Assembly (NCBI GenBank): GCA_003168375.1
Contig: PMSI01000001.1
Coordinates: forward strand, 1,116,001-1,180,000
DNA length: 64,000 nucleotides
Origin: Vulcanimicrobiota bacterium
Lineage (GTDB): Bacteria; Vulcanimicrobiota; Vulcanimicrobiia; Vulcanimicrobiales; Vulcanimicrobiaceae
Direction of reading: 5' to 3'
Positions within the stretch are counted from its first letter, which is position 1. Every line of letters starts with the position of its first letter. The position numbers were made by a program, and so were the translations under genes. Shown here one piece after another: positions 11,671 through 15,930 of this stretch. The notes under the pieces were generated by a model. That model was not told the DNA's origin and did no database searches. It saw nothing but the letters and a program-made list of their open reading frames with translations.

Positions 11671-13593
11671 TCAGCGGCTGCCGAAGTCGACGAGGATCTC
11701 GGTGCCGAGCGCGACGATGAAGCCCGCCGCGAGCATCGAGGTCGACGTGACGGTGAGCCCGCTGCGCTTGAGCACGCTCCACAGCTCGCCGACGACGAAC
11801 ACGAGTGCGCCGACCGCCATGGTGAGAAAGAACGTCTGCAGCGTCGGCGAGGAGAATCGGTAGCCGATCATCGAGCCGATGAACGTCGGCCCGCCTGCAA
11901 CGAACCCCGCGAGCGCGAGCTGACCCCACGTCGGCGGCGTGCCCCGTCCGGCGATCGGCGCCGCGATCCCGAACCCTTCGGTCGCGTTGTGCAGCGCGAA
12001 GCCGAGGATCAGCGCGAACGCGATCGTGGTCGCGCCCGACGCGGCGGACGCGCCGATCGCAAGCCCTTCGGCGAAGTTGTGCGCGCCGATACCGACCGCG
12101 ATCATCCCGGCGAGCACCAGCGGGCGCTCGTCACCGGCAATCGCGCTCCCGGCCTTCGCGATGCTGCCCGCGAACGTGCCGAGTCCGACGAGTCCGGCCA
12201 GCAGTCCGGCGACGTACGCGATCGCCATCGCGAGCGGCAACGGCGAGGCTGCCCCCGCCCCGCCGGTCGAACGGTGCCATGCGGAGAGCGCGCGCAGGAG
12301 CGGCGTCGTCGCGTTGCCGGCGATCTCGACGATGAGGTAGACGAGGATACCGATCGCGAGCGCGTTCAGCGCGCCGACCGCCGCGGGCGAGAGGCGCCGT
12401 GCGCGGGCGATCGGCAGCCCGAGGAAGATCGTCAGACCGGCGAACGCGCCGAGCAGCGCCGTCATCCAGAACGAGAGCGGCCCGCGCGGGTTGCGGTTCG
12501 AGGAGTCCGGCATGTGCATCCGCATCGCCACGTTCATCGCGTCCAAGCGCTGTGGCGTGCCGGCGTAGTGGATCGTGGTGATCAGGCCGGCCGGCAACCC
12601 TTTGCCGTCCTCGGTGTGATCGAGCACGTGGCAGTGGACCAGCCAGTTGCCGGGCTGCGCGTTCGCGTACACGACCGCATCCAGGCGCTGTCCGGGGCCC
12701 ATCAGGATCGTGTCCTGCACGTCGCGCGCGCCGACGGGCTGCGCGTCGCGCGCGATCACGATCATGTCGTGCCCGTGCGCGTGCATCGTGTGCATGTTCT
12801 CCGACGACATGTTGATCCAGCGCAGCCGCACGCGCTCGCCGCGCCGCACTTCGATCGGCGTCGTCGCCGGATACTCTTTGCCGTTGATCGTGAAGTGGCT
12901 CTCGGAGACGCTTTGGATCGACCACGACGAGATCAGCTCGACGTCGTCGCGCTGCACGCGTTCTTCGGGACGCGGGTGCGCCGGCAGCACGACGATCGCG
13001 CCGTAGAGCCCGCTGTTCACCATCTGCTCGTTGGCGTGGCTGTGGTAGATGAACGTGCCGGACTGTCCGGCGGTGAACTCGTAGCGGAAGCGCCCGCCGG
13101 GCGGGATCATCTCTTGCGAGATGCCGGGGACGCCGTCCATGGTGTCGGGCGTGCCGTGGATCCCGTGCAGGTGCACGGTGTCGGGGACGCTCATGACGTT
13201 GCGGACGTCGACGACGACGCGGTCGCCCTGGCGCGCGACCAGCGTCGGGCCGGGGACGACGCCGTTGTAGGTCTTGGCCATGACCGTGAGGCCGGGCTGG
13301 AGCGTCCACGGCGCCTCGCGCGCGACGATGTGGAACGTCACCGTGCGGCCCTGCCGGTCGGGGACGGCGCCGAACGTGCCGTCCTCGCGCCGCACGAGCC
13401 GCGACTCGCCGGGGAGCGGCGTCGCGACGGGGATCGGCCCTTTCAAGGGCTGCAGCCCGACCGTCGTGGGGTCGACACCGAGCGCCGATTCGTCGGAGTC
13501 GGCGCCGACGGCCAGCGGCACGGAGGCGAGGAGAAGGACGAGCGGGATGACGGCCGCGACCAGCGAGGCACGCCGAACGATCCATTTCGGCAC
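11671..13593 (-). CDS. Multicopper oxidase fused to a ZIP-family metal transporter
   Basis: This is a 640-residue fusion. A signal anchor (about 6-31) precedes two cupredoxin domains. All four His-x-His copper motifs are present: HLH 141-143, HSH 184-186, HAH 271-273 and HCH 320-322, the last within HCHVLDHTEDGKGL, which also supplies type 1 ligands. From about residue 372 to the end it becomes an eight-helix membrane domain with both ZIP signatures, HNFAEG (about 505) and HNATEG (about 545), plus GGPTFIGSMIGY. A multicopper oxidase joined to a divalent-metal permease recalls the yeast Fet3/Ftr1 oxidase-permease pairing. Metal oxidation coupled to uptake is inference. I chose the GTG at 13593 because a terminator lies just upstream of it. 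Confidence 0.88.
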   Translation of the reverse strand: MPKWIVRRASLVAAVIPLVLLLASVPLAVGADSDESALGVDPTTVGLQPLKGPIPVATPLPGESRLVRREDGTFGAVPDRQGRTVTFHIVAREAPWTLQPGLTVMAKTYNGVVPGPTLVARQGDRVVVDVRNVMSVPDTVHLHGIHGTPDTMDGVPGISQEMIPPGGRFRYEFTAGQSGTFIYHSHANEQMVNSGLYGAIVVLPAHPRPEERVQRDDVELISSWSIQSVSESHFTINGKEYPATTPIEVRRGERVRLRWINMSSENMHTMHAHGHDMIVIARDAQPVGARDVQDTILMGPGQRLDAVVYANAQPGNWLVHCHVLDHTEDGKGLPAGLITTIHYAGTPQRLDAMNVAMRMHMPDSSNRNPRGPLSFWMTALLGAFAGLTIFLGLPIARARRLSPAAVGALNALAIGILVYLIVEIAGNATTPLLRALSAWHRSTGGAGAASPLPLAMAIAYVAGLLAGLVGLGTFAGSIAKAGSAIAGDERPLVLAGMIAVGIGAHNFAEGLAIGASAASGATTIAFALILGFALHNATEGFGIAAPIAGRGTPPTWGQLALAGFVAGGPTFIGSMIGYRFSSPTLQTFFLTMAVGALVFVVGELWSVLKRSGLTVTSTSMLAAGFIVALGTEILVDFGSR

Positions 13594-13608
13594 GCCTAAC
13601 TCATTAGT

Positions 13609-13643
13609 CCCGAGCCCGCCGACACCCCGCCGGCGGGCTCGGG
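13609..13643 (-). terminator. Hairpin between the EXORDIUM-like lipoprotein gene and the oxidase-ZIP gene
   Basis: CCCGAGCCCGCCG pairs perfectly with CGGCGGGCTCGGG across a 9-nt loop (13-bp stem). It lies directly after the stop of the upstream lipoprotein gene on the same strand. No T-run follows, so it may act as a Rho-aided or mRNA-protecting hairpin rather than a classical intrinsic terminator. Confidence 0.6.
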
Positions 13644-13662: not shown

Positions 13663-14625
13663 CTAGTAGGTTTGGACGCAGCCGTTGTTGGCGTTGCTCC
13701 AGAGCGGCTGGGTCGGGTAGCCGCCCGCGTTCGGGTTGTTGATGAGGTTGATCCAGGCGCACTTGTCGCCGTTCTCGGCGTTGTTGCTGTCGAGCCAGCC
13801 GGTGTTCGGGAAGGGGTCCGTTTCGGTCTCGCCCTGTTCGTGGCCGAAGACGATCGAGACGCCGTCCAGCGTACCGGGGTTGTTCACCGAGCCCGCACCG
13901 CACGATGCTCCGACGTCGGGCAGGTAGGGATCGTTCGTCCACGCGATCGTGTGCCCGGCCGCGGTCGTGGTGCTGTGGTACGCACAGTACTGCGTGCCGA
14001 AGCCCTGCGGTTTGATCCCGTGCGGTAGCGCGACGATGTACGCCGCGTTGGCAGAATAGTCGCCATATTTCGCAGCGGCCTTGACGGCCTCGGCCGCGAG
14101 CTGCGACTGACTGGGACGGCTCGGCGGCGAGCTCGTCGTGTCGACGTACGAGCCGACGAAGCTGCCCGTCTGATTGCCGACGTGTTGCCCGTCGCTCTGC
14201 GTGTACTGCGTGGTGCTGTTGTTCCAGCCGCTCCCGCCGACGATGGCGAGGAATGCCTTCATCCGGGCGGCGACGCCGCTGGGGTCCCCGCTGCCGTTCC
14301 ACGAGGAGCCCCAGAAGACGACATACATCTTCGGGTTCGTCTGGATCGGGCCGCCGTGATACGTCAGCGGCGAGGTCGCCTGCAGCTCGCGCTGCCCGAG
14401 CTGGGTTTGACGCAGCGCGTCGATCGTTTCGCGAGTCGGAAAGATGCGGACGTACTCGCCCGTAGTGTTGTTCTGAGCGACGAACGTCGAGAGCGTCGTG
14501 AACTCGCGGTCCGCCGACTGCGCCTGCGTGGTGTCTGTGTTCGCGGGAACGATCTGCTGACCGCCGCCGGAGCATGCTGCAAGCAACGCCGAAACGGCGG
14601 CTGCAGCGAATAGCCGAGCCTTCAA
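13663..14625 (-). CDS. EXORDIUM-like secreted lipoprotein (copy 1)
   Basis: This is a 320-residue lipoprotein. TTG at 14625 is preferred because AGGGGTGG lies a few bases upstream and the signal (LKARLFAAAAVSALLAACSGGG, lipobox LAAC) starts there, as in its paralogue. The mature part contains SPLTYHGGPIQTNPKMYVVFWG near the start. Near the end comes a His-Glu motif GHEQGETETDPFPNTGW followed by NAENGDKCAW, which parallels the SHELAE...NAWY...EIGDLC region of EXORDIUM/phosphate-induced-1 family proteins. HExxE could bind a metal. The downstream copy 14830-15798 encodes a close paralogue, so this is a tandem duplication. The role is unknown. Confidence 0.75.
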   Translation of the reverse strand: MKARLFAAAAVSALLAACSGGGQQIVPANTDTTQAQSADREFTTLSTFVAQNNTTGEYVRIFPTRETIDALRQTQLGQRELQATSPLTYHGGPIQTNPKMYVVFWGSSWNGSGDPSGVAARMKAFLAIVGGSGWNNSTTQYTQSDGQHVGNQTGSFVGSYVDTTSSPPSRPSQSQLAAEAVKAAAKYGDYSANAAYIVALPHGIKPQGFGTQYCAYHSTTTAAGHTIAWTNDPYLPDVGASCGAGSVNNPGTLDGVSIVFGHEQGETETDPFPNTGWLDSNNAENGDKCAWINLINNPNAGGYPTQPLWSNANNGCVQTY

Positions 14626-14781
14626 AGAACCACCCCTATTTGGAAAAAAGAGACGCAGCGCTACACCCACACCATCGGACATCTGCGGTCGCGGTGTGCG
14701 CGGCCGTCTGCATTTGTTCGCGCGGTGCAAAGCCACCTTCGAGAAAAGCCGGGTACGCGACATTCGTCGCTCCCGTCACAT

Positions 14782-14829: not shown

Positions 14830-15798
14830 TTAAGGGTACGTCTGCACGCAGCCGCTGTTGGCGTTGCTCCAGAGCGGCTGCGTCGGATAACCGCCGGCGT
14901 TCGGATTGTTCTCGAGGCTGATCCACGCGCACTTGTCGCCGTTCTCCGCACCGCTGCTGTCGAGCCAGCCGCTGTTCGGGAAGGGATCGGTCTCGGTCTC
15001 ACCCTGTTCGTGACCGCCGACGATCGTGACGCCGTCGAGCGTACCCGGGCTGTTGACGGAACCCGCGCCGCACGACGCCCCGGCGTCGGGCATGTACGGA
15101 AGATTCGTCCACGCGATCGTGCCGCCGCTCGTACTCGTCGAGCTGTGATACGCGCAGTACTGCGTTCCGAAACCGGACGGCTTGATGCCGTGGGGCATCG
15201 CGACGATGTACGCTGCGCTTGCGGTGTAGTTGCCGTAGTGCGCCGCGGCCTTCGCCGCCTCGGCCGCCATCTGCGACTGCGTCGGGTGCCGTGGCGGCGT
15301 GCTCGTCGTGTCGATGTACGAGCCTGCGAAGCTGCCCGTTTGGTTGCCGACGTGCTGCCCATCGCTCTGCGTGTACTGCGTGACGCTGTTCAACCAGCCG
15401 CTGCCGCCGATCACGCCGTAGAAGGCCTTCAGACGCGTGGCGACGCCGCTCGGGTCGCCAGTGCTGGTGCTCCAGGCTGAGCCCCAAAAGACGACGTAGA
15501 TCTTGGGTGTCGTTGCGATGGGCCCGCCGTGATACGTCAGCGGCGAAGTCGCCTGCAGCTGGCGCTGACCGGCCAGCGTTGCGCGCAGTGCATCGATGGT
15601 GTCGCGTGTCGGATAGATGCGGACGAACTCTCCGGTCGCGTCGTTCTGCGCGACGAACGTCGAGACCGTCGTGAGTTCGCGGTCTTCGGCCGCCGGCGCT
15701 TTCGCCGGCGGAGGCGCGGGCGGCGCCGTTCCGCCGCCGTTACAGGCGGCGAGGAGCGCCGCGATCGCGGCGACGGCGAACAGCCTGGTCTGTTTCAA
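14830..15798 (-). CDS. EXORDIUM-like secreted lipoprotein (copy 2)
   Basis: This 322-residue paralogue of the next gene shares the same order of motifs: lipobox LAAC, SPLTYHGGPIATTPKIYVVFWG, TQYTQSDGQHVGNQTGSF, YCAYHS, GHEQGETETDPFPNSGW and NGDKCAW. The segment after the lipid anchor is Pro/Ala-rich and differs between copies, while the catalytic-looking C-terminal half is almost identical. TTG at 15798 is chosen, with GGAGG 7-8 nt upstream; a GTG one codon earlier is the alternative. The protein is outer-membrane or surface-tethered by inference. The substrate is unknown. Confidence 0.75.
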   Translation of the reverse strand: MKQTRLFAVAAIAALLAACNGGGTAPPAPPPAKAPAAEDRELTTVSTFVAQNDATGEFVRIYPTRDTIDALRATLAGQRQLQATSPLTYHGGPIATTPKIYVVFWGSAWSTSTGDPSGVATRLKAFYGVIGGSGWLNSVTQYTQSDGQHVGNQTGSFAGSYIDTTSTPPRHPTQSQMAAEAAKAAAHYGNYTASAAYIVAMPHGIKPSGFGTQYCAYHSSTSTSGGTIAWTNLPYMPDAGASCGAGSVNSPGTLDGVTIVGGHEQGETETDPFPNSGWLDSSGAENGDKCAWISLENNPNAGGYPTQPLWSNANSGCVQTYP

Positions 15799-15930
15799 CA
15801 CAAGGACCTCCACACCCCAAATTGAGGGCAGCAGGAAATGACGCCCCTAACCTTTGTCGGTGCAGCGAATCCGTCCTTCGACTGCTGTGCTCGTATCGCA
15901 GAATTGTGATGGAAGTCTGTAGAGCGGCCG

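Follow-up and report, generated by a model that had tools for sequence, protein, structure and literature searches.

A multicopper oxidase fused to a ZIP-family metal permease in Candidatus Eremiobacterota, with split counterparts in other bacteria and archaea

THE FUSED GENE

The window, by which we mean the whole 64,000-nucleotide stretch of Vulcanimicrobiaceae DNA analyzed here, carries on its reverse strand a gene (11671..13593) that joins a multicopper oxidase (MCO) to a ZIP-family metal permease. The frame is open for 640 amino acids, from a GTG start to a stop codon at 11671-11673, and matches both Pfam and NCBIfam models. Along the chain lie a signal sequence, a two-domain MCO, a methionine-rich linker, and an eight-helix ZIP domain. 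The signal sequence (13504..13593, reverse strand; approximately residues 1 to 30) is predicted from the sequence and from the alignment, in which relatives carry an AxA-like cleavage site. A first-pass annotation, made from the DNA letters, had proposed that the two families share one polypeptide, and the open frame, the Pfam domains, and the fold of the modeled second half bear this out. A scan for the domain pair places Cu-oxidase_3, Cu-oxidase_2, and Zip in a single protein, with Zip below its curated cut-off. The fusion is real. A full-length model reached a pLDDT of 67, too weak for describing the junction between the two halves.

Two features lie just upstream. A perfect 13-bp inverted repeat (13609-13621 and 13631-13643) separates the fusion from the preceding gene and is possibly a terminator-like hairpin. 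Beyond it, also on the reverse strand, two tandem genes (13663-14763 and 14830-15813) encode secreted paralogs that weakly match Phi_1 (phosphate-induced protein).

THE OXIDASE HALF

The first cupredoxin domain (12982..13311, reverse strand; residues 95 to 204) matches Pfam Cu-oxidase_3 over residues 95 to 204 (E 1.4e-35) and carries HLH at 141/143 and HSH at 184/186. It has no cysteine and hence no type 1 (T1) copper. The second (12559..12960, reverse strand; residues ~212 to 345) matches Cu-oxidase_2 over residues 232 to 330 (E 3.4e-25) and shows the pattern HxxHxH and HCHxxxH, comprising H268, HAH at 271/273, HCH at 320-322, and H326, with H268, C321, and H326 as the T1 ligands. All four His-x-His motifs named in the first pass are therefore in place for the trinuclear cluster. 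The ligands of both domains are invariant in the alignment apart from one lineage (L015), which has QCH instead of HCH; the remaining 44 of 45 non-identical fusions keep HCH.

Which kind of two-domain oxidase is this? Because its T1 copper is in domain 2, domain 1 lacking the cysteine, it is a type B enzyme, a class defined by that very placement (PMC13151041). Type B two-domain MCOs assemble as trimers that hold the copper cluster at the interfaces of their subunits, and those studied so far behave as slow laccases that oxidize phenols (PMC13151041). The T1 loop of the fusions is longer than in known type B MCOs, and its axial position is variable, being Leu in the window's protein. An acidic residue stands 2 or 3 positions ahead of the T1 histidine in 45/45 fusions, which is suggestive, but only suggestive, of ferroxidase activity.

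Between the oxidase and the permease lies the linker MNVAMRMHMPDSSNRNPRG (12481..12537, reverse strand; residues 353 to 371). Across the 45 non-identical fusions, methionine makes up 17.1% of linkers and 2.2% of the remaining sequence (Fisher p 1e-76, which overstates the significance, the sequences being related).

THE ZIP HALF

The permease domain, with its eight membrane spans, occupies 11680..12471 on the reverse strand (residues ~375 to 638), as judged from alignment, model, and fold match. By profile alone it is a faint ZIP. Pfam Zip (PF02535) matches residues 493 to 587 with an E value of 3e-5 and a score of 23.8 bits, under the curated cut-off of 35.1 bits, and NCBIfam ZupT aligns to residues 376 to 627 (model positions 6 to 257 of 266), likewise under its cut-off. 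The second half matches Pfam Zip in 15/15 relatives scanned, with scores for the fusions of 23.8 to 28.1 bits, all short of the cut-off, while certain split-pair relatives described below exceed it at 40 to 43 bits. Since the match falls below threshold, routine annotation may name such proteins "multicopper oxidase" only, as has happened with a Deinococcus relative.

The fold is much clearer. Modeled alone, the second half has a pLDDT of 83 and a pTM of 0.79, with helices that form eight membrane spans, as the first pass had read them. In a Foldseek search with this model, eight BbZIP chains were the sole significant matches (E 3e-6 to 5e-5), and VIA-align gave Z scores of 19.3 to 23.3 for BbZIP as opposed to 7.4 for the best unrelated fold. 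Chance occurrence of ZIP motifs is ruled out by these matches, and with it a second half lying outside the ZIP fold, which the first pass had named as grounds for giving up its claim.

The first pass had also reported both ZIP signatures. Both are there, though not in canonical form, the prolines being replaced by Ala and Thr: HNFAEG in TM4 (12064..12081, reverse strand; residues 505 to 510, with H505, N506, and E509) and HNATEG in TM5 (11974..11991, reverse strand; residues 535 to 540, with H535, N536, and E539), where Thr stands for the canonical Pro. H505, E509, and E539, which align with BbZIP H177, E181, and E211, preserve M1-site ligands and are invariant in the fusions read. In TM6, the GGPT motif (11884..11895, reverse strand) places T570 at the position of the M2-site residue E240 of BbZIP. 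More generally, the fusions read HN[F/L][A/G/S]EG, HNxTEG, and G-x-P-T in TM6, without the prolines of HNxPEG; where BbZIP has its TM6 glutamate, the fusions carry Thr and the split relatives Ala or Val. In BbZIP, transport takes place at M1, and losing M2 has little effect (PMC11549095); unlike the trimeric type B MCOs, BbZIP is reported to be a homodimer (PMC10256678). Because the prolines and the acidic M2 ligand of TM6 are missing, we class the domain as a divergent ZIP subfamily rather than a canonical ZIP.

DISTRIBUTION OF THE FUSION

The fusion occurs within the phylum Candidatus Eremiobacterota: among its 149 genomes, a profile search found near-full-length fused frames in 65, which fall into three families of a single class (the window's own, a second of its order, and a third of its class). 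The hosts belong to a class of little-studied soil bacteria. For phylum genomes outside this class, the matches listed were MCO-only. Nineteen loci, virtually all of them from Candidatus Eremiobacterota, came out of a scan of GTDB species genomes; they match over the full length or to a contig end. The first pass had allowed that a stop at the junction would undo the fusion; the frame is uninterrupted in 17 of the 19, the exceptions being a gap of Ns (L017) and an in-frame TAG (L002). The TAG, in genome G125, lies between the two MCO domains and marks a pseudogene or an assembly error. A frame error, assembly error, or chimera at the window's locus is ruled out by the recurrence in 65/149 genomes.

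Outside the phylum, the GTDB scan gave only mislabeled metagenome-assembled genomes (MAGs), although short patterns taken from one protein would miss distant fusions. One such MAG, labeled Rhodospirillales (L012, CAJCIN010000015.1), is apparently the same contig as that of a genome in the window's family (G095). No relative appeared in a scan of viral contigs, and there was no PHROGs match.

When the ZIP half served as the query, all substantial matches in the class were fused frames or ran into a contig edge, and this ZIP was not seen there without an MCO besides contig fragments. Some genus-mates of the window's organism lack the fusion. Two of them (G119 and G124; loci L074 and L078) carry a related MCO in which one C-terminal helix replaces the ZIP and which also has a Met-rich tail.

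SPLIT PAIRS AND A REVERSE FUSION

Do the two parts occur together elsewhere? In a tblastn search of plasmids with the fused protein, an MCO gene next to and ahead of a ZIP gene turned up in Deinococcus, Rubrobacter, Arthrobacter, Nocardia, Bacillaceae, Alphaproteobacteria, cyanobacteria, and haloarchaea. A second query, made by joining the two proteins of an Arthrobacter pair, was covered to at least 80% at one place in 142 plasmid records and brought in Rhodococcus and Sulfitobacter. We read 19 annotated split loci. In many, the two genes overlap or abut; several of the MCOs have N-terminal twin-arginine motifs, and the ZIPs carry an additional N-terminal stretch of ~100 residues. The split MCOs have their HCH in domain 1, which makes them type C. 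One is a protein of known structure: the oxidase on the Arthrobacter sp. FB24 plasmid (L054:5680-8036) matches PDB 3gdc with complete or near-complete identity (E 1e-204), an entry deposited, to our knowledge, without any known role. It belongs to a split pair that adjoins an MntR-type regulator.

On a plasmid of Deinococcus sp. KNUC1210, the order is reversed, with ZIP first and MCO second on one chain (L051:5944-7755, WP_239052023.1), the sole such case among the plasmids searched. Its MCO has QCH, not HCH, and its annotation names a multicopper oxidase only. ZIPs usually have eight spans with both ends facing outward, and an even eight would put the MCO outside whether fused before or after the permease.

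In the ZIP tree, the fusions form one clade (81/96), beside stand-alone Mycolicibacterium permeases and the reverse fusion, and the split ZIPs form a separate group that includes one stand-alone haloarchaeal ZIP. In the MCO tree, the split MCOs form one clade (100/100) on a very long branch from the fused MCOs. The outgroup and reverse-fusion branches of these trees are long and their placement is unsure. That fused and split MCOs are orthologues is ruled out, as they are two lineages with T1 copper in different domains. Two MCO lineages joined to two sister ZIP clades suggest, but do not prove, that the pairing arose independently. ZIPs of the same subfamily also occur without an MCO, on Mycolicibacterium plasmids (L087 and L088) and in Natronorubrum (L089), the latter beside a DtxR-type regulator.

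Other neighbors of the split pairs include a Rieske 2Fe-2S gene (L055, L081, L082, L053, and L094) or an azurin-like gene (L083 and L093) directly or closely after the ZIP gene, either of which may encode a redox partner of the split MCO. Copper or heavy-metal ATPase genes lie close to several split pairs and to the reverse fusion.

REGULATION

In one of the three fusion families (f3), a gene of the DtxR family, with the domains Fe_dep_repress, Fe_dep_repr_C, and FeoA, sits beside the fusion in 11 of 12 loci read and, by domain matches, in 14 of 14 genomes; in most loci, it ends 4 bp inside the start of the fusion. A close relative of this regulator lies downstream of the fusion in another genome (G079). 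Which metal might these proteins sense? The residues at DtxR positions 10 and 102 serve to separate iron-type from manganese-type ligands (PMC10317159, PMC4805248), a criterion that is predictive rather than proof, since a mixed site has also been shown (PMC4805248). The f3 and G079 regulators have Met and Cys (M10/C102), the iron type. Regulators adjoining split pairs have Asp at position 10 and Asp or Glu at position 102 in 9/9 cases, the MntR (manganese) type, and 3 of the 9 are already annotated as MntR. No DtxR/MntR-type regulator adjoins the window's fusion gene; that genome has a single DtxR-type gene, located on a different contig, whose product carries Glu at position 10 and Cys at 102. 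Copper, ligand, or siderophore genes are not a recurring feature of the fusion loci read.

The start region of the fusion loci is conserved beyond the protein. In the window, an operator-like palindrome, TTAGGCGTGCCGAA (13586..13599, on neither strand in particular), agrees with TTAGGCNNGCCTAA at 11 of 12 informative positions and has the GTG start codon at its center; the consensus is TTAGGC-RT-GCCTAA, with the start codon central. The 4.43-Mb genome of the window holds two sites with at most one mismatch, of which that at the fusion start is the only non-coding one; the second lies inside a coding frame and adds no regulon member. The motif was defined on 20 fusions of the other two families (f1 and f2), where at least 10 of the 12 informative positions are matched in 20/20 and at least 11 in 18/20, at a site lying between -62 and -6 relative to the start; among random 310-bp windows drawn from these loci, 2.7% reach 11/12. 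The f3 and divergent fusions were examined afterwards, and the palindrome was found ahead of the regulator gene in 11/11 f3 operons and in all 3 divergent fusions tested. The loci are related, so none of these counts are independent. Of the split pairs, comparable palindromes occur at two Deinococcus and two haloarchaeal loci, and the rest do not rise above background. At two loci (L090 and L084), palindromes of the form ATATAGC-NNNN-GCTATA lie 5' of the MCO gene, and these we take to resemble proteobacterial MntR boxes. In two genomes (G029 and G109), perfect sites away from the fusion are near genes without an evident metal role.

An operator at the start codon is suited to repression and, by the logic of DtxR, a gene of this kind would be on under metal shortage.

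PROPOSED FUNCTION

What could an oxidase do for a permease on the same chain? An exported oxidase, an importer, a conserved pairing, and shortage-type control together argue for metal acquisition, and our main reading, to which we give a probability of about one-half, is a metal-repressed, one-chain acquisition protein whose oxidase acts on the metal at the importer's mouth. In outline, the signal sequence would export the type B two-domain MCO, and the Met-rich linker would tether it at the outer mouth of the eight-helix ZIP, both ends of which are expected to face outward. When metal is sufficient, a metal-loaded DtxR-family repressor on the start-codon palindrome would silence the gene; upon metal shortage, the protein would be made and the ZIP would import a divalent metal, inward being the presumed direction. 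The oxidase would most likely act on Fe(II), less likely on Cu(I), at the permease mouth. A metal as the oxidase substrate is favored by the acidic residues next to the T1 histidine and by the linker.

The first pass had suggested that oxidation of a metal is coupled to its passage through the attached permease. Such coupling gains from adjacent split genes in distant phyla, from the reverse-order fusion, and from regulation of the DtxR/MntR type; the same parts being adjacent in many bacteria and archaea, the MCO and the ZIP probably act together in metal uptake. As to cargo, iron is the most likely for the fusion, because the adjoining sensor, where present, has iron-type ligands, and manganese is favored for the split pairs, judging by the ligands of their sensors. 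Copper is less likely in view of both sensor types, with the Met-rich linker leaving some room for it. Given the other MCO lineage and the manganese-type sensors of the split pairs, inference from one form to the other is weak. Against the main reading are the slow-laccase behavior of the type B enzymes studied, the MCO-less ZIPs of the same kind, the lineage with QCH in place of HCH, and the window's own gene, which has no adjoining regulator in a genome whose one DtxR-type protein carries Glu instead of Met at position 10.

There is also a difficulty of chemistry. Known ZIPs take divalent ions, so that an MCO acting on Fe(II) or Mn(II) would deprive the permease of its usual substrate unless the product, such as Fe(III), or the electron were handed on directly. 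A more far-reaching reading, which we think possible but would not lean on, is a redox-coupled importer: the O2-reducing oxidase would alter the oxidation state of the metal and pass it to a retuned ZIP on the same chain, whose altered site (no TM6 acid, and PEG changed to TEG) would suit the oxidized product, with the fusion being the one-chain form, under iron-type control, of a widespread bacterial and archaeal MCO-ZIP module whose split form is under manganese-type control. Alternatively, and rather doubtfully, the ZIP chemistry stays ordinary and the MCO is a laccase that oxidizes phenolic, humic, or siderophore ligands, freeing metal at the ZIP; semiquinones would reduce Fe(III) to Fe(II), and the permease would take the divalent ion. 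Characterized type B two-domain MCOs do oxidize phenols (PMC13151041), several hosts of the fusion are named after peat or bog samples, and the same regulation speaks for uptake, but the conserved acidic residues and the linker hint at a metal rather than a phenol, and ligand or siderophore genes do not recur beside the fusion.

ZIP transporters are poorly selective, and it is conceivable, if unlikely, that the MCO acts as a valence filter, oxidizing a competing ion, Fe(II) or Cu(I), at the entrance of the pore and leaving the ZIP to admit just the desired divalent ion, namely, Mn(II) for the split pairs and, for the fusion, perhaps Zn(II) or Mn(II). The manganese-type sensors of the split pairs and the lack of a TM6 acidic ligand would fit, yet the sensor on the fusion side is of the iron type, which makes iron likelier to be wanted than excluded. 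Detoxification, in which surplus Cu(I) or Fe(II) would be oxidized by the MCO while the ZIP moved metal outward or served just as an anchor for the enzyme, seems quite improbable. The linker, the nearby copper or heavy-metal ATPases of several split pairs and the reverse fusion, and the two genus-mates with this MCO on a plain single-helix anchor can be cited in its favor; copper genes do not recur beside the fusions, however, the M1-site residues of the ZIP are retained, and a start-codon palindrome points to a gene that metal represses, contrary to one that excess metal would induce. Lastly, the sub-threshold Pfam score could be read as a sign of an artifact, or the fusion could be neutral, with no functional coupling; 65 genomes, a solid ZIP fold, split pairs elsewhere, and the reverse fusion make this scarcely credible.

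COMPARISON WITH KNOWN SYSTEMS

Two-domain MCOs are usually termed laccases for want of a physiological role. The fused oxidase shares with the type B enzymes SLAC and Cellvibrio CjMCO two cupredoxin domains, T1 ligands in domain 2, and a complete set of trinuclear-cluster histidines, and differs in having a C-terminal ZIP, a Met-rich linker, and a longer T1 loop with a variable axial position. Type C MCOs, such as those of Arthrobacter sp. FB24 (3gdc) and Marinithermus (7rab), have T1 copper in domain 1 and are a separate lineage. With BbZIP and ZupT (ZIP family, SLC39), the permease half has in common the fold and the M1-site residues; unlike them, it has the HNxPEG prolines replaced, lacks the TM6 Glu, and follows an N-terminal MCO. 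A nearer relative is the "zinc permease" of Mycolicibacterium plasmids (L087 and L088), with ~49% identity and the same motifs, which stands alone with no MCO adjoining.

The first pass knew of no described fusion of these families. We found no description of an MCO-ZIP pair or fusion in the open-license papers searched. The window's fusion is not unique, since it recurs within its phylum. Both families and the Fet3-Ftr1 type of coupling are already known; what appears new is the pairing of a ZIP with an MCO, its spread, and its regulation. ZIP transporters are not known to depend on a dedicated enzyme for moving metal ions. Here, two separate oxidase lineages are linked to two sister clades within a single ZIP subfamily, in bacteria and archaea, in three ways (fusion, a single fusion in the opposite order, and adjacency) and with metal-shortage regulators. 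If the coupling is true, two-domain MCOs, including the solved structure 3gdc, would gain a physiological role, and there would be a tractable system for asking what an oxidase does for a divalent-metal importer.

The closest functional parallel is yeast Fet3-Ftr1, to which the first pass had likened the fusion. The likeness stands insofar as an MCO is coupled to a metal permease and tied to metal shortage, a tie that is probable for the fusion, and it is otherwise loose: Fet3-Ftr1 is two chains, and Ftr1 takes Fe(III) and is unrelated to ZIP. By Foldseek and VIA-align, the permease described here is a ZIP and not a permease of the OFeT/FTR1 family. The fusion may operate as Fet3-Ftr1 does without belonging to that system and, should the coupling prove true, prokaryotes would have a widespread equivalent of the MCO-assisted metal uptake of eukaryotes, based on a different permease.
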